Origin: Lysobacterales bacterium
GTDB lineage: Bacteria > Pseudomonadota > Gammaproteobacteria > Xanthomonadales > Ahniellaceae
Assembly: GCA_016182785.1 (NCBI GenBank)
Contig: JACPFU010000023.1
Span: 124,001-188,000 of the forward strand
Direction of reading: 5' to 3'
Length of the DNA stretch: 64,000 bases
The position numbers and the translations under genes are program-made. This document shows, one piece after another, positions 51,581 to 59,364 of this stretch. The notes under the pieces were generated by a model that saw nothing but the letters and a program-made list of their open reading frames with translations, was not told the DNA's origin and did not search any database. Position 1 is the first letter of the stretch; each line of letters starts with the position of its first letter.

Positions 51581-54500
51581 ATGCACCGCCTGCTGATCGC
51601 ATGCGCCGGGATCGTGGCCGCACTTCTCGCGACCGGAGCGTCTGCGGCCGAGGCGCCGGTTGTCGACAGCGTGCGTTTCCGGACGATCACGGTGGCGCAG
51701 GGGCTGAGCCAACCGACCGTGCGCGCCCTGCTGCAGGACCGCCGCGGCTACCTGTGGATCGGCACGCTGGATGGGCTGAACCGCAGCGACGGCAGCCGCA
51801 TCCGCGTCTTTCGCAATCGACCGCAGCAACCCGAGAGCCTGGCCGACAATCATGTTTCGGCGCTGCTTGAGGATGCGCAGGGCAACCTGTGGGTCGGCAC
51901 CGGCGGTGGCGGGCTCGACCGCTTCGATCCGGTGCACGAGCGCTTCGAGCATTTCCGCCACGATCCCTCCGACCCGGGGTCGATCGCCGGCGACGGCGTC
52001 AACGCGCTCGGTCTCGATGCCAGCGGTGCCGTCTGGGTGGCGACTTCCGCCGGGGGCTTGCAGCGCCTGCTGTCGGGCACCAGGCGCTTCGTCGTGGCGC
52101 GCGACGGTGCGCGCTTGCCCGGCGTCAACAGCACCCGCGCGATCCTGCTGCTGCGCAACGGCAACCTGCTGGTTCCGACCCGACTCGGCTGCTACGAGCT
52201 GGATCCGCAAGGCGCGCTGGTGCGCGAGTGGACCGATGGTGACGGGCATTCGATCGACGGCTATGCAGTGGCGCAGGGACCCGACGCCGCGTTGTGGATC
52301 GGCTCGGGTGGAGCCGGGTTGTACCGGATCGATGCCGCCGGACAGGTGCGGAACTGGCGGGCGGCGTCACAGGGGCTGGGGGGAGACGGCGTGCGCGCGC
52401 TGCAGTTCGACGCCTCCGGCGCGTTGTGGATCGGCACCCTGACCGGGTTGTCGCGACTGCAGCCGGCAAGTTCCGAGATCCGCACCTGGCGCTATGACCC
52501 CTATGGCCGCACCGGGCTCGCGGCGCACCGGGTCGAGTCGATGACCGTGGACCGCGACGGACTGATCTGGATCGGCACCTGGGCCAACGGCATCAGCCTG
52601 CACGACCCGGGACGCACCGGGTTCCATCTCGCGAGTTTCCGGCCCGACGACCCGCGCTATCTGCCGCGGCCCACCGTCATCGGTGTCGCCGCCGCCAGCG
52701 ATGGCAAGGTCTGGGTCGGGATGCACGAGGAAGGTGGCGTCGCGTTGCTCGATCCGCAACGTGGCGTCGAGCGCGTCTATCGGCACGACCCGGCCGACCC
52801 GCAATCGATCGGCTCGTCATCGGCGCAGGCGCTGCGTCAGACGCGCGACGGCAGCCTGTGGGTCGGGTCTGCCACTGCCGGCCTGTCGCGCCTTGCCCCG
52901 GGCAGCGATCGCTGGCAGCGGTTCGTTCCCGATCCCGCCGATCCGCGCGCGCTGCGCAGCCTGAATGTCGCCGGCCTGTACGAAGATCGCGACGCCAACC
53001 TCTGGGTAGCGACGCTCGGTGCCGGCGTCGCGCGGCGTTGTGCCGGCTGCGACGGCTTCGAGCCACTGGAAGCACTGAGCGGCGGCCGCTCGCTGCCGCT
53101 GCAGGTGGTGAACCTCGTCTACCAAACGCAGGATGGCGCGATGTGGTTCGGCATGCGCAGTCGCGGACTGGTGCGCTTCGATCCGGCCAGTCGTGCACTC
53201 GACCACTACGCACCGGGTGGTGTCGATGCGATCAGCGGCGGCGTGATCACGCACATGCACGAAGATCGTCAGGGCCGGTTGTGGGTGGCGACACAGGGTG
53301 GCGGGCTCAATCGCGGCGTGCGCGACGCGCAGGGTCGCTACCGCTTTCGCGCCATTCGCCGCGTGGACGGGCTGGCCGCGGACGCGATCGCCGCAGTGGT
53401 CGAAGACGACGCCGGCCGGCTGTGGGTGTCGCATTCCGCCGGGATCTCCAGGCTCGACGCGGACGGCGGCCGGTTGGTCAACTTCGACTGGTCGGACGGC
53501 ACCCAGAGCCTCGGCTACTTCGTCGGCTCCGCGGCCAAGGGCGCCGATGGGCGGATCTACTTCGGCGGGCTCGAAGGTCTGACGCTGTTCGACCCGCGCG
53601 AGATCGGCGAGCCGCGCGCACCCAAGGCGCCGATGGTTTCGGCGATCGGGGTGCTCGGGTCGACGGTGCTGACCAACGCCGAAACCGAATCGGCGAGCCG
53701 GCGCGTGTTGGTCGAGGACGGCGTGGTGCAGCTCGGCCATCGCGACCGCGTGGTCCATGTCGATTTCACTGCGTTCAACTACACGCACCCGACCTCGACC
53801 CGCTACGCCTACCTGCTCGAAGGGTTCGAGGACCGTTGGATCTCGCTCGAGCCTGGCGCCAGCAGCGCCACGTTCACCGGCCTGCCCGCAGGCGAATACC
53901 GGTTGCGGCTGCGCGCTGCCGGGCCCGCCAGCCAGCGCTGGATCGAGTCGCCCGGCGTGCTCACCGTGCGCGTGCGACCGGCACCGTGGTGGTCGTGGTG
54001 GGCGCTGTCCGGCTACGCCGCGCTGACCCTGCTGGCGGCGGGATTCGTGCTGCAGCGCCTGGCCCGCTACGCGCGCCAGCGCCTGGACGAACAGCGTCGC
54101 CTGAAGCAGAGCGAGGAGTGGTTGAGCATGGCGCTGGAATCCTCGGGCGACGAAATCTGGGACGCGGACCTGGTCGCCGGCAGCATCGTGCGCCGCAACG
54201 CCAACCCGCAGACGCTGGTTCCGCACGGCGAACGCCTGCGCGTGCAGGACATCTTCGGCGCGGTGCATCCGGACGACCAGCAGGGATTCCTCGACGCCTA
54301 CCACGCTGCGGTGAAGGGGCTCAGCGAGCGCCTGAAGACCAGCTTCCGCGTCGCCACTCGCGATGGCGGCTGGCTGTGGGCGCTGTCCTACGGGCGCGTC
54401 GTCGAGCGCGACGCCGAAGGCCGCGCCACGCGGCTGATCGGCGTGTCGCGCGACATCAGCGAGATCATGCAGCACGAGGAGGCGCTGCAGCGCCTGAACA

Positions 54501-55360
54501 GCGAGCTCGAACACCGCGTCGATGCGCGCACCCGCGACCTGCAGGGCGCCAACGCCCAGTTGCGGCGCACGCTCGATGATCTGCGCCAGGCGCAGAAGCA
54601 ACTGGTCGAGTCGGAGAAGATGGCGGCCCTCGGCGCGCTGGTCGCCGGCGTCGCGCACGAGATCAACACGCCGCTCGGCATCGGCGTCACCGCGGCTTCG
54701 CACCTGTCGACCGAATCGCGGCGCATCCAGGGGCTGGTCGCCGAGGGCACGATGAAGCGCTCCGACCTGGATGCCTACCTGGCGACGGCGGGCGACAGCT
54801 CCGAACTGATCCTGCGCAACCTCAAGCGCGCCGATCACCTGGTCAAGAGCTTCAAGCAGGTTGCCGTCGACCAGTCCAGCGAACAGCGTCGCGTGGTCGG
54901 CCTGGCCGAATACCTGGACGAGATCCTGACCTCGCTGCACCCACGCCTGAAGCGCACCGGGCACCGCGTGCTGGTCGACTGCGATCCCTCGATCCGCGCC
55001 CACACCTACCCGGGCGCGCTGTACCAGGTCATCGTCAACCTGGTGATCAATTCGCTGGTGCACGGCTTCGAGGGCCGCGACGACGGTACCGTGCGCATTG
55101 CCGTGCGCTGCGCAGCCGGGCAGGTCGAGATCGACTTCAGCGACGATGGTTGCGGCATGGCCGAGGAAGTGCGCACGCGCATCTTCGAGCCGTTCTTCAC
55201 CACCAAGCGCGGCCAGGGCGGGTCCGGGCTCGGCATGCACATCGTCTACAACCTGGTGACGCAGATGCTCGGCGGCACCGTGACCTGCGACAGCGCTCCC
55301 GGGCAGGGCGTGCGCTTCCTGCTGCGCTTCCCGCAGGGCGACCTCGATGCGATCGACTGA
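51581..55360 (+). CDS. Beta-propeller sensor histidine kinase (Reg_prop, Y_Y_Y, PAS, HisKA, HATPase)
   Basis: Large inner-membrane sensor of 1259 residues. A signal peptide (about 1-22) leads a periplasmic region of repeated propeller blades (VRALLQDRRGYLWIGTLDGLNR is a typical blade; about residues 30-720). A Y_Y_Y domain (about 730-800) precedes one membrane helix (about 804-824). Then follow a PAS domain (about 845-965), a coiled coil, and the kinase core with H1026 in VAHEINTPLG, the N box LVINSLVHGF, and DDGCGMAEEVRTRIFEPFFTTK with GLGMHIV. No receiver or DNA-binding domain is fused, unlike many hybrid propeller kinases, so it needs a separate response regulator. The convergent REC/HD-GYP gene is the obvious candidate. 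Confidence 0.93.
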   Translation: MHRLLIACAGIVAALLATGASAAEAPVVDSVRFRTITVAQGLSQPTVRALLQDRRGYLWIGTLDGLNRSDGSRIRVFRNRPQQPESLADNHVSALLEDAQGNLWVGTGGGGLDRFDPVHERFEHFRHDPSDPGSIAGDGVNALGLDASGAVWVATSAGGLQRLLSGTRRFVVARDGARLPGVNSTRAILLLRNGNLLVPTRLGCYELDPQGALVREWTDGDGHSIDGYAVAQGPDAALWIGSGGAGLYRIDAAGQVRNWRAASQGLGGDGVRALQFDASGALWIGTLTGLSRLQPASSEIRTWRYDPYGRTGLAAHRVESMTVDRDGLIWIGTWANGISLHDPGRTGFHLASFRPDDPRYLPRPTVIGVAAASDGKVWVGMHEEGGVALLDPQRGVERVYRHDPADPQSIGSSSAQALRQTRDGSLWVGSATAGLSRLAPGSDRWQRFVPDPADPRALRSLNVAGLYEDRDANLWVATLGAGVARRCAGCDGFEPLEALSGGRSLPLQVVNLVYQTQDGAMWFGMRSRGLVRFDPASRALDHYAPGGVDAISGGVITHMHEDRQGRLWVATQGGGLNRGVRDAQGRYRFRAIRRVDGLAADAIAAVVEDDAGRLWVSHSAGISRLDADGGRLVNFDWSDGTQSLGYFVGSAAKGADGRIYFGGLEGLTLFDPREIGEPRAPKAPMVSAIGVLGSTVLTNAETESASRRVLVEDGVVQLGHRDRVVHVDFTAFNYTHPTSTRYAYLLEGFEDRWISLEPGASSATFTGLPAGEYRLRLRAAGPASQRWIESPGVLTVRVRPAPWWSWWALSGYAALTLLAAGFVLQRLARYARQRLDEQRRLKQSEEWLSMALESSGDEIWDADLVAGSIVRRNANPQTLVPHGERLRVQDIFGAVHPDDQQGFLDAYHAAVKGLSERLKTSFRVATRDGGWLWALSYGRVVERDAEGRATRLIGVSRDISEIMQHEEALQRLNSELEHRVDARTRDLQGANAQLRRTLDDLRQAQKQLVESEKMAALGALVAGVAHEINTPLGIGVTAASHLSTESRRIQGLVAEGTMKRSDLDAYLATAGDSSELILRNLKRADHLVKSFKQVAVDQSSEQRRVVGLAEYLDEILTSLHPRLKRTGHRVLVDCDPSIRAHTYPGALYQVIVNLVINSLVHGFEGRDDGTVRIAVRCAAGQVEIDFSDDGCGMAEEVRTRIFEPFFTTKRGQGGSGLGMHIVYNLVTQMLGGTVTCDSAPGQGVRFLLRFPQGDLDAID

Positions 55361-56878
55361 TCAGTCCGGGAAGCGGGCGCGGATCTGCTCGGCGCGCTGC
55401 CAGTTGTCGAACAGCAGCTGCACCAGCCTGGGATCGAACTTCTTGCCGGTCTGCTCGCGGATGAAGGCGCGGATGTCCTCGGCGCTCCAGGCTTCCTTGT
55501 AGCAGCGCTTGCTGCCGAGCGCGTCGAACACGTCGGCGAGCGCGGTGATGCGTCCGCCGATCGAGATCTCGTCGCCGCGCAGCCCGCGCGGGTAGCCGGA
55601 ACCGTCCCAGTTCTCGTGGTGGTCCTCGGCGATGATCGCGGCCAGTTGCAGCAGCGGCAGGCGCGAGGCGGCTAACCACTGCGCGCCGATGCGTGCGTGC
55701 GTGCGCATCACATCGGTTTCCTCGGGCGAATGCGTGCCCGGCTTGTTCAGCACCGAATCGGGAATGCCGATCTTGCCGATATCGTGCAGCGGCGCCGCGT
55801 AGCGCAGCATCTCGCGCGCGCGCGACTCCAGCCCGTAGGCCTCGCCGATCAGGTCGGCGAGGTGGCCGACGCGCTTGACGTGGTTCAGCGTGTCCTTGGA
55901 GCGGCTTTCGGCGACGCCGGCGAGCAGGGTGACGATCTCGACCTGCGAGTCGAACATCTCGCGCTGCAGGTGCAGGTTCTCGAACGCGATCGAGACATTG
56001 GTGCAGAACACCTCGACCAGTTTCATGTCGAGCGGGGTCAGGTCCCAGGTCTCGCCAACGTAGAGCAGGCTCTCGGTGCGGTGGCTGTCGGTGAAGTGCA
56101 GGACGTAGTGGTCCTTGTTGAACACGTGGCGCTTGCGCGTGTAGGCGTCGCGCAGGGTGTCGGCGATGTGCGGCGGCAGGCGTTCGTCGGCGTTGTTGTC
56201 GACGAAGCGCGAGTAGTCGCCGTTCGCGGCCGCGATCACGAAGTGCTCCGGTGTCTGCGTCGCCGGACGCGGCACCTTGCAGTACAGCGCGCCGCGCTCG
56301 ACGCCGACCAGGGTGGTCAGCTGGCCGAGCACGGCCGAGGCGAACTCGTGCGAGTGCTGGTGCGAGAAGATCCTGGCCGACGCCTCGATGACGCGTTCGA
56401 GGCCGCGCTTGTTCGCCTCGATGGTCATGATGTCGCGGTGCGCGCGTAGCGTTGCGTACATCATCGTCGACAGTTTCTGCGCGGTGAGTTCGGTCTTTTC
56501 CTTGTAGTCGTTGATGTCGTAGTTGGCGATCACGTCCTGCTCCGGCGCCTGCCCGGGCTGGCCGGTGCGCAGCACGATGCGCACGAAGCGGTTGCCGATC
56601 TCGTTGCGGATGATCTTGACCAGATCCAGTCCGGCCTGGTCGCTCTCCATGACCACGTCGAGCAGCATCACCGAGGTGTCCGGGTTCTGCGCGATCAACC
56701 CGCGCGCTTCCCGCGCCGAATACGCCTGCAGGAACTGCAGCGGCCGGTTCTCGAAGCGGAAGTTCGACAGCACCAGGCGGGTGACATTGTGCACCTCGGG
56801 CTCATCGTCGACGATCATCACCTTCCACGGTTGCACCGTGGTGGTTTCCTCGGGTGCGAACAGTTCATCCATCGCCAC
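55361..56878 (-). CDS. Response regulator with DUF3369 and HD-GYP c-di-GMP phosphodiesterase domain
   Basis: Predicted phosphorylation-controlled c-di-GMP phosphodiesterase of 505 residues. The receiver domain (about 18-140) has DD at 24-25 and the phospho-acceptor D74. A DUF3369 region (about 160-305), a GAF-like sensor, follows. The HD-GYP domain (about 310-500) has H365-D366 in LHDIGKIG, HHEN at 420-423 and GYP at 428-430, so metal-binding residues are present. The gene is convergent with the sensor kinase at 51581, with directly adjacent stop codons. ivd lies upstream on the same strand. Confidence 0.94.
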   Translation of the reverse strand: MAMDELFAPEETTTVQPWKVMIVDDEPEVHNVTRLVLSNFRFENRPLQFLQAYSAREARGLIAQNPDTSVMLLDVVMESDQAGLDLVKIIRNEIGNRFVRIVLRTGQPGQAPEQDVIANYDINDYKEKTELTAQKLSTMMYATLRAHRDIMTIEANKRGLERVIEASARIFSHQHSHEFASAVLGQLTTLVGVERGALYCKVPRPATQTPEHFVIAAANGDYSRFVDNNADERLPPHIADTLRDAYTRKRHVFNKDHYVLHFTDSHRTESLLYVGETWDLTPLDMKLVEVFCTNVSIAFENLHLQREMFDSQVEIVTLLAGVAESRSKDTLNHVKRVGHLADLIGEAYGLESRAREMLRYAAPLHDIGKIGIPDSVLNKPGTHSPEETDVMRTHARIGAQWLAASRLPLLQLAAIIAEDHHENWDGSGYPRGLRGDEISIGGRITALADVFDALGSKRCYKEAWSAEDIRAFIREQTGKKFDPRLVQLLFDNWQRAEQIRARFPD

Positions 56879-57029: not shown

Positions 57030-58187
57030 CTAATTCCGCCCTTCGAACAACTCGCGGCCGATCAGCATCTGGCGGATTTCGTTGGTGCCGGCGCCGATTT
57101 CGTAGAGCTTGGCGTCGCGCAGCAGGCGGCCGGTCGGGTATTCGTTGATGAAGCCGTTGCCGCCGAGCGTCTGGATCGCTTCCAGCGTGACCTGGACCGC
57201 GGAGCGCGAGGCGTGCAGCAGGCAGGCGGCGGTGTCGATGCGCGAGCGGTTTCCGGCGTCGTAGTCGCGGGCGATCTGGTAGGCGAAGGCGCGCGAACTC
57301 TGCAGCGCGGTGTACATGTCCGCGAGCTTGGCCTGCATGATGCCGAAGCTGCCGATCGGTGAGTCGAACTGGCGGCGTTCGCGGGCATAGCCGAGCGCGA
57401 TCTCGATCGCCGCCTGCATCAGCCCGATCGGTCCGCCGGAGAGCACCAGGCGCTCGGTGTTGAGACCGCTCATCAGCACCTTCACGCCCTGGTTCACTTC
57501 GCCGAGCACGTTCGCGACCGGGATCGCGCAGTCCTCGAACACCAATTCGCAGGTGTTGGAGCCACGCATGCCGAGCTTGTCAAGCTTCTGCGCGGTGCGA
57601 AACCCGGGCATGCCCTTCTCGACGATGAAGGCGGTCATTGCGCGCGACTTCATCTCCTTGCCCGCCGTGCGCATGTACACGACCAGCACGTCGGCTTCGG
57701 GACCATTGGTGATCCACATCTTGGAGCCGTTGGCGAGCCAATGGTCGCCGCGCAGTTCCGCGCGGCAGGCCATCGAACCGACCACGTCCGAGCCGGCACC
57801 CGGTTCGCTCATCGCCAGCGCGCCGACGTGCTCGCCCGAGCACAGCTTCGGCAGGTAGCGCGCGCGCTGTTCCGGCGTCGCATTGTTGTACAGGTTCTGC
57901 ACGCACAGGTTCGAGTGCGCGCCGTAACTCAAGCCCACCGAACCCGAGGCGCGCGAGATCTCCTCCATCGCGACCAGATGCGCCAGATAGCCCATCTCCG
58001 AGCCGCCGTATTCGCCGGGCAGGGTGATGCCAAGCAGACCAAGCTCGCCGAGCTTGCGCCACAGGTCCGCCGGGAACAGGTTGTCGTGGTCGATCTGCGC
58101 CGCGCGCGGCGCGATCTCCTTCTCGGCGAACGCTCGCACCGTGTCGCGCAGCAGGTCGATGTCTTCGCCGAGGGGAAATGCGCGCAT
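57030..58187 (-). CDS. liuA: Isovaleryl-CoA dehydrogenase
   Basis: FAD enzyme that oxidises isovaleryl-CoA to 3-methylcrotonyl-CoA. It has 385 residues of the acyl-CoA dehydrogenase fold. The catalytic glutamate specific to this subgroup is seen in [17 protein letters not shown]; correspondingly, the position used in medium-chain enzymes is not Glu ([12 protein letters not shown]). [10 protein letters not shown] and [15 protein letters not shown] are family motifs. It lies 70 bases downstream of leucine dehydrogenase on the same strand, with a strong hairpin between them. Confidence 0.93.
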
Positions 58188-58215
58188 CGCGGAAACTCCG
58201 TAGGTCCGAACGAGA

Positions 58216-58242
58216 ACGCCACGCGCGAGCTGCGCGTGGCGT
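58216..58242 (-). promoter_or_regulatory. 11-bp perfect hairpin between leucine dehydrogenase and ivd genes
   Basis: ACGCCACGCGC/GCGCGTGGCGT with a 5-base loop sits in the 70-base gap. There is no real T-run after it on the minus strand (TTCTCGTT), so it is more likely an RNA-stabilising or partial-attenuation hairpin than a full terminator. Confidence 0.5.
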
Positions 58243-58257
58243 CGGGGGCACCAGTGC

Positions 58258-59364
58258 TCAGCCCAGTCCGCGCATGCGGCCGAGGAAGCGCGGGGCGCCG
58301 TTGCCCATGTGCGGCAGGCGGATCTTGCCGATGGTCTGGATGCGCTCTTCGGCCATGCGGTCGGCGGCCTTGTACGAAGGGATGTTGTCGCGCTTGGCGA
58401 TTGCGAAGATCTTGCCGAGGTTGTGGTAGATCGTGCGCATCATGCGCATCGCGCGTTCGCGGTTGTAGCCGTCGATTTCGAGCGACACGTTCATCAGGCC
58501 GCCGGCGTTCACGGCGTAGTCGGGCGCGTAGATGATGCCGCGCTTCTCGACTTCGTCACCGCAGTCCTCGGTGGCGAGCTGGTTGTTGGCGGCGCCGCAG
58601 ATGACCTTGAACTTGAAGCGCGGAATGGTGCTGTGGTTGACGGTGCCGCCGAGCGCGCACGGCGAATAGACGTCGGCGTCGACGTCGTAGATGTCGTCCA
58701 GGCTCACCGCTTCGCAGCCGTAGTCGTCGACGCAGCGCTGCACCGACTCCTTGTTGATGTCGGTGACGAACACCTTGGCGCCCTGTTCGCGCAGCAGCTT
58801 GACGAACTCGCCGCCGACGTGGCCGACGCCCTGCACCGCATAGCTGTACTTGCCGACGTCCTCGTTGCCGAACTTGGCGTTCAGCGTCGCCATCAGGCCC
58901 TGCAGGGTGCCGTAGGCGGTGAATGGCGAGGGGTCGCCGGAACCGCCATGCACCTGGTGCACGCCGGTGACGAAATCGGTTTCCTTGAGCACCCATTCCA
59001 TGTCGTTGACGTCGATGCCAACGTCCTCGGCAGTGATGTATCGGCCATTCAACGAATTCACGTAGCGGCCGAAGGCGCGGAACAGCGCTTCCGACTTGTC
59101 CTTGGACGGGTCGCCGATGATCACGCCCTTGCCGCCGCCGAGGTTGAGCCCCGACACCGCCGCCTTGTAGGTCATGCCGCGCGACAGGCGCAGCACGTCG
59201 TTCAGCGCGTCCTGCTCGGTCTTGTACGGCCACATGCGCAGACCGCCCAGCGCCGGCCCGAGGACCGTGTTGTGGATCGCGATGATCGCCTTCAGTCCGG
59301 CATCCTTGTTGTGGCAGAAGACGACTTCCTCGTGACCCGAGGATGCGAGCGTTTCGAAAATCAT
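58258..59364 (-). CDS. Leucine dehydrogenase (Glu/Leu/Phe/Val dehydrogenase family)
   Basis: NAD-dependent oxidative deamination of leucine (and probably valine and isoleucine) to the keto acid. It has 368 residues. [12 protein letters not shown] and the catalytic-lysine region [20 protein letters not shown] are diagnostic; the Rossmann fold begins with [24 protein letters not shown] is also conserved in this group. It precedes ivd on the same strand and thus starts the leucine route; only the keto-acid dehydrogenase is missing between the two. Some members prefer valine or phenylalanine, so naming is by context. Confidence 0.92.

Follow-up and report, generated by a model that had tools for sequence, protein, structure and literature searches.

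A propeller sensor kinase and a convergent REC-DUF3369-HD-GYP regulator as a probable two-component pair in a Lysobacterales bacterium

Can two genes that run head-on into each other, without a base between their stop codons, encode the two halves of a single signalling system? The question is raised by a 64,000-nucleotide stretch of Lysobacterales bacterium DNA (assembly GCA_016182785.1, contig JACPFU010000023.1, positions 124,001 to 188,000; hereafter the window, from whose first letter all positions are counted). It carries a gene for a histidine kinase with periplasmic beta-propellers on the plus strand and, on the minus strand, a gene for a response regulator in which a receiver domain (REC), DUF3369, and an HD-GYP domain follow one another (Table 1). 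A first-pass annotation, made from the letters alone, had placed the two open reading frames (ORFs) here and proposed a probable convergent two-component pair. Both ORFs are present as described, and the proposal is supported by co-occurrence of the genes, by conserved adjacency, and by a count of the receiver genes that lie beside related kinases; we put the probability that kinase and regulator form one two-component pair at roughly 0.8.

The earlier statement that the kinase lacks a receiver and the regulator a kinase is borne out by Pfam, which matches Reg_prop repeats, Y_Y_Y, PAS_3, and HATPase_c in the former and, in the latter, DUF3369 (PF11849, 156.4 bits) between receiver and HD-GYP, with HD_5 (109.7 bits) and HD also matched. 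No fused receiver or DNA-binding domain is detected in the 1259 residues of the kinase (Pfam, E 0.001), the C terminus of which follows directly after HATPase_c. The phosphoacceptor domain is absent from the Pfam matches as HisKA, and the motif HEINTPLG with His1026 is present. A model of the periplasmic part (mean predicted local distance difference test score, pLDDT, 83; 7 sequences) matches BT4663 of Bacteroides (4a2l) with template modelling (TM) scores of 0.67 by query and 0.75 by target, and Pfam, model, and Foldseek together identify a propeller and Y_Y_Y periplasmic sensor of the hybrid two-component system (HTCS) type. The receiver of the regulator scores 26.7 bits in Pfam, under the cut-off of 30.2; the best receiver chains match its modelled fold at Z of about 18–20, and residues D24, D25, D74, T105, K126, and K128 are kept in 40/40 aligned sequences. 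The regulator model as a whole has a pLDDT of 84 and a predicted TM score (pTM) of 0.54, with DUF3369 modelled less confidently (blocks of 60–88). DUF3369, which the first-pass annotation did not name, is a useful handle on the regulator family. It is regarded as GAF-like because the model superposes on the GAF-HD-GYP enzyme PmGH (4mcw), DUF3369 and HD-GYP together giving Z 32 over 331 residues with a root mean square deviation of 4.1.

Table 1. Positions in the window of the convergent kinase and regulator genes, their domains, and their junction
Feature	Position	Strand	Basis
Propeller sensor histidine kinase, 1259 aa, ATG start	51581..55360	+	ORF, Pfam, own-genome Reg_prop
N-terminal hydrophobic segment, likely signal peptide or anchor, ~residues 1-24	51581..51652	+	Hydropathy; model helix 2-21; inference
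Periplasmic beta-propellers (Reg_prop), ~residues 25-715	51653..53725	+	Pfam; model; Foldseek to BT4663 4a2l
Y_Y_Y domain, ~residues 726-800	53756..53980	+	Pfam (733-785)
Probable transmembrane helix, ~residues 806-828	53996..54064	+	Hydropathy peak 1.56 at 806; model helix 806-839; inference
PAS domain, ~residues 861-965	54161..54475	+	Pfam PAS_3 (888-955)
Phosphoacceptor His1026 in AHEINTPLG	54656..54658	+	Sequence motif
HATPase_c catalytic domain, ~residues 1130-1252	54968..55336	+	Pfam (1145-1252); N and G boxes
TGATCA, abutting stop codons of the convergent genes	55358..55363	.	Sequence; 5 host-order loci including this one
REC-DUF3369-HD-GYP response regulator, 505 aa, GTG start (in-frame ATG two codons on)	55361..56878	-	ORF, Pfam, sequence
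HD-GYP phosphodiesterase domain	55364..55957	-	Pfam; PmGH alignment; residue counts
DUF3369, GAF-like by fold	55958..56461	-	Pfam; model on GAF-HD-GYP enzyme 4mcw
Receiver domain, Asp74 acceptor	56483..56827	-	Pfam; conserved residues

Co-occurrence was scanned in 250 genomes of the host order, with E ≤1e-70 for the regulator and E ≤1e-60 for the kinase part; per genome, scoring covered the top first-look candidates (up to 6 and 9, respectively), which makes absences soft and kinase counts lower bounds. The regulator is present in 24 genomes, a close kinase in 30, and both in 23 (Fisher 2.4e-25, uncorrected for relatedness), and the genes therefore do not commonly occur without each other in this order: 23 of the 24 regulator genomes hold both. 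The single genome scored with a regulator alone, G001, carries a kinase fragment where a contig breaks off. Among the kinase-only genomes, G162 has an HD-GYP fragment at the end of a contig, in convergent orientation to the kinase, and a REC-DUF3369-GGDEF-EAL regulator adjoins the kinase in G013 and G236; the contig ends 155, 190, and 71 bases beyond a kinase 3′ end in G049, G055, and G098, while G005 is 67% complete and has its orthologue cut at a contig end.

Gene layout was surveyed around 199 distinct REC-DUF3369-HD-GYP genes, drawn from loci picked for containing the regulator. A kinase of the window's subfamily lies within 2.5 kb of 116 of them: upstream on the same strand in 80, all of them outside the host order (76 within 200 bases), downstream on the same strand in 11, convergent in 25, and divergent in none. 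The host-order set comprises 29 regulators, the window's included, namely those of the 24 genomes above plus L105, L107, L108, L109, and L133 (L108, whose title gives no more than Gammaproteobacteria, was placed in the order by 63% identity and its position in the tree). L109 comes from Dokdonella immobilis, a named strain that carries the convergent pair as well. Twenty of these 29 have the kinase within 2.5 kb, all 20 convergent and 16 within 200 bases. Of the nine without a kinase, two are cut short by the end of a contig (L072 and L086); L221 holds the other half of the L086 regulator gene, next to a convergent kinase. The convergent arrangement is seen five times outside the order (L230, L244, L246, L286, and L298). 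The first-pass annotation had called convergence rare for cognate pairs; for comparison, same-strand neighbours are reported in a survey to outnumber opposite-strand ones by more than 15:1 among two-component genes less than 200 bp apart (PMC3018481). Within the host order, convergence is itself the rule. The back-to-back stop codons are confirmed, and the same zero-base TGATCA junction occurs at L068 (the window locus), L069, L088, L089, and L133. No intrinsic terminator was found at the junction; the 8.2 kb scanned contain two terminator-like sites, where shuffled sequence gives a mean of 4.1.

A propeller is carried by 16 of the 20 convergent host-order kinases (two cut by contig ends) and is not seen in four (G002, G008, G244, and L105). 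In the convergent kinase of G008 (L081:5222-8650), some 700 N-terminal residues are without a Pfam match at E 0.001.

The kinase side was examined through 66 subfamily kinases (>200 bits) in host-order loci, which had been fetched for either the regulator or the kinase. A receiver gene lies within 2.5 kb of 19 of the 66, encoding REC-DUF3369-HD-GYP in 15 cases and REC-DUF3369-GGDEF-EAL in four; no receiver of any other kind was found within that distance, and hence the concern that the kinase might sit beside another regulator in relatives is answered by 19/19 nearby receivers being REC-DUF3369. Two more kinases stand next to an HD-GYP fragment where the contig stops, and the remaining 45 have neither receiver nor HD-GYP fragment within 2.5 kb, some through contig ends. 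Receivers were sought with a purpose-built profile of 30 sequences, which picked up the two ordinary receivers in a control locus (27 and 37 bits) and may miss weak ones. At L194, L201, L206, and L218, REC-DUF3369-GGDEF-EAL genes share a strand with subfamily kinases, two of which are propeller kinases.

The HEINTP motif was also considered as an exclusive mark of kinases with DUF3369 partners and was rejected, since a more distant kinase subfamily with the same HEINTP helix adjoins REC-REC proteins. Motif-positive genomes number 36/200 and DUF3369 genomes 26/200, with 23 in both. At L326, L327, L329, L334, and L339, kinases of this second subfamily stand next to a 306–322 aa protein with two receiver stretches (Pfam); L325 and L328 also hold kinases of the subfamily.

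Where might a head-on pair have come from? The window pair has same-strand relatives across phyla, outside the host order for example in Paenibacillus, Pelosinus, and alphaproteobacterial metagenome-assembled genomes; in the host order it is convergent and mostly propeller-sensing. None of 91 same-strand kinases matches the propeller profile above 50 bits, many of them being shortened by short flanks (45/91 exceed 600 aa), and ten examined by Pfam have PAS, GAF, dCache, or Tll0287 sensors or none named, not Reg_prop. A tree of 173 kinase rows contains a group of 44, made up of 19 of the 20 convergent host-order kinases, 24 lone host-order kinases, and one outsider, with a Shimodaira–Hasegawa-like approximate likelihood ratio test (SH-aLRT) value of 86 by a quick method. 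It thus seems that in the host order an old pair came to lie head-on and most of these kinases acquired a propeller, a direction of change that we infer. The G244 kinase lies elsewhere in the tree, near two other convergent kinases, and convergence therefore seems to have arisen more than once. Alignment A2 comprises 15 rows, with L082 and L090 left out.

Co-evolution of kinase and regulator is supported by swapping partners within genomes: kinase and receiver distances correlate with r 0.763 in true pairs versus 0.471 (standard deviation 0.094) in swapped ones, and 5 of 5000 swaps reached as high a value (13 genomes, 29 pairs). Across the 20 host-order pairs, the corresponding correlation is 0.806, uncontrolled for species relatedness. 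Covariance of contact residues, which had been suggested as a check, was computed over 116 adjacent pairs and is used as evidence neither way: the signal is dominated by variable termini and relatedness, and the test has little to work on because the recognition helix is nearly invariant.

The catalytic residues of the HD-GYP domain appear nearly intact. By alignment, seven of the eight PmGH metal ligands are identical in the regulator, with PmGH His189, His221, Asp222, His250, His276, His277, and Asp305 corresponding to His333, His365, Asp366, His394, His420, His421, and Asp449; the GYP motif is present, PmGH Lys225 is kept as Lys369, and the counterparts of PmGH R314 and K317 are likewise conserved. 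VCA0210 of Vibrio cholerae, of the same architecture, is reported to hydrolyse c-di-GMP in lysates, and its expression had phosphodiesterase (PDE)-like effects in vivo (PMC4212101); by this analogy, the regulator would be expected to be active as a c-di-GMP phosphodiesterase.

Several observations weigh against a functional pair with this output. Outside the host order, 74 of 170 regulators are without this kinase type within 2.5 kb, so that the conserved adjacency and co-occurrence found in the order extend beyond it in part (96/170); over the whole survey, 83 of 199 regulators lack such a kinase within that distance, nine of them host-order, with eight of the 83 having less than 1.2 kb of sequence on one side. 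The partner-swap test contains no host-order pair, and mutual information with average product correction gave no block at the interface between the kinase's dimerisation and histidine phosphotransfer (DHp) domain and the receiver (116 adjacent pairs, effective number of sequences 92). In the active site, the eighth PmGH metal ligand, Glu185, is Asp329 in the regulator, where 38/40 aligned sequences have Glu, and PmGH Asp183, which is needed in that enzyme, aligns with Ser327, Ser occupying this position in at least 90% of the family alignment. Reported PmGH mutants retain some activity as E185A and none as D183A (PMC4159591).

The Asp183 replacement bears on the idea that the HD-GYP domain, rather than being a c-di-GMP phosphodiesterase, acts on another cyclic dinucleotide, 3′3′-cyclic GMP-AMP (3′3′-cGAMP), or as a binding partner. 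The idea gains from V-cGAP3 being a solved relative of the HD-GYP part and from the report that Lysobacter RpfG regulates an antifungal product without needing its own PDE activity (PMC8463545), and loses from the activity of VCA0210 and the kept R314 and K317 positions; on balance, it is improbable. Less probable still is that the two genes are mere neighbours without a shared pathway, held together by a conserved block of flanking genes. In several families, a Leu dehydrogenase gene, an acyl-CoA dehydrogenase gene, and the regulator gene point the same way, with the kinase head-on and a thiolase gene beyond it, and many of the same genomes share this block; yet L083, L085, L087, and L089 (family f9) keep the convergent pair without either dehydrogenase in the 5–7 kb upstream of the regulator, and genes of these two families also neighbour each other, on one strand, in different contexts outside the host order. 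The flanks as sole explanation were judged unlikely on the strength of those four loci. Dehydrogenase neighbours were sought at E 1e-40, at which diverged copies could escape, and the upstream sequence of L084 and L088 is too short for a judgement.

More credit, short of an even chance, goes to the view that the regulator is served by several subfamily kinases, adjacent and orphan propeller kinases alike, the adjacent one being one input among them or not the main one. Close kinases outnumber DUF3369 proteins by at least 3 to 1 in G000, G002, and G003, at least 4 to 1 in G036, at least 5 to 1 in G244, and at least 6 to 1 in G043; the 30 kinase genomes hold at least 67 close kinases, while 32 strong DUF3369 proteins occur in 29 of the 250 genomes. 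Orphan and paired kinases have almost the same recognition helix, most of the 66 host-order kinases have no receiver nearby, and the nearest receivers to two G000 orphan kinases, among the receivers listed, are more than 20 kb away. One G000 orphan (C32), however, groups in a clade that includes kinases partnered to GGDEF-EAL regulators. As a more tentative extension, the adjacent and orphan propeller kinases might all phosphorylate one REC-DUF3369-HD-GYP protein and so sum extracellular signals, with overlapping transcripts at the zero-gap junction damping each other; the convergence of inputs is suggested by the nearly fixed recognition helix of the subfamily (HEINTPxG..TAxSHL), and the overlap by the zero-gap junction at which no terminator was found.

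Under the preferred reading, that of one two-component pair, the periplasmic propellers of the kinase would sense a ligand from outside; BT4663 prompts the guess that this may be a glycan. The signal would pass through Y_Y_Y, a single membrane helix, and PAS to the DHp domain, where His1026 would be autophosphorylated before its phosphate is handed to Asp74 of the regulator. The likely direction of the effect of phosphorylation is drawn by analogy from Desulfovibrio HD-GYP regulators, for which full-length proteins are reported to be less active than isolated domains (PMC4114195).

On the regulator side of the pair (window 57030-59364), a Leu/Glu-type dehydrogenase gene is followed by an acyl-CoA dehydrogenase gene and, 151 bases beyond the latter, by the regulator; the three share a strand and a conserved order and may be a co-transcribed unit. 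In G019, G036, and G067 (family f11), kinase and regulator lie on different contigs with more than 5 kb of other sequence past each 3′ end. The acyl-CoA dehydrogenase gene still precedes the regulator in G067, and the kinases there remain next to the thiolase gene, suggesting that the locus broke between the 3′ ends without loss of either gene; the G073 kinase runs off a contig end, so that a split cannot be judged there. A Hemerythrin-HisKA protein is encoded at L097:9863-11188, close to an orphan propeller kinase in the genome from which the window comes.

How much of this has precedent? Signalling from a kinase to an HD-GYP regulator is already known; the convergent layout and the propeller sensor are new. 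VCA0210, like the window regulator, unites receiver, DUF3369, and HD-GYP in one protein with shown PDE activity, and no kinase partner is named for it in the relevant passages of the source (PMC4212101), whereas the window regulator faces a convergent propeller kinase. RpfC/RpfG of Xanthomonas shares the logic of a kinase acting on a receiver-HD-GYP phosphodiesterase (PMC4212101). The window kinase is non-hybrid and has a propeller, unlike the hybrid-kinase partner of the RpfC/RpfG type. RpfC is a hybrid kinase, and RpfG is without DUF3369.

Propeller sensors are best known for transcriptional control of polysaccharide use in Bacteroides, and an HTCS is by definition a hybrid with fused receiver and DNA-binding domain. 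BT4663 has a propeller periplasmic sensor, as does the window kinase; it is a hybrid two-component protein, whereas the output of the window system is a separate phosphodiesterase. The window kinase thus has the propeller and Y_Y_Y feature of an HTCS and not the fused receiver and DNA-binding feature. In the related bacterium Lysobacter enzymogenes, propeller/Y_Y_Y kinases HtsH1/2/3 are reported to bind the HD-GYP regulator RpfG, their cytoplasmic parts binding a promoter and lowering RpfG PDE activity; unlike the window kinase, they are hybrids with receivers (PMC8463545). The Reg_prop and Y_Y_Y sensors GdpX2 and GdpX3 of Xanthomonas oryzae are likewise tied to c-di-GMP, as standalone GGDEF proteins with sensor and output in one chain, unlike the window pair (PMC6637768). 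A link between propellers and c-di-GMP therefore exists phylogenetically nearby, and the earlier view of c-di-GMP as a different output for a propeller sensor is weakened by these precedents; no separate propeller kinase with a REC-DUF3369-HD-GYP partner was found in the open-access literature searched.

If kinase and regulator are partners as proposed, propeller sensors would gain a two-component route to c-di-GMP turnover, and the REC-DUF3369-HD-GYP regulators, widespread and little studied, would gain a recognisable kinase subfamily. The orphan kinases would become named candidates for converging on a single regulator. The pair would then be a case of a kinase and its regulator held in convergent orientation through the families of one order despite a swap of the sensor.

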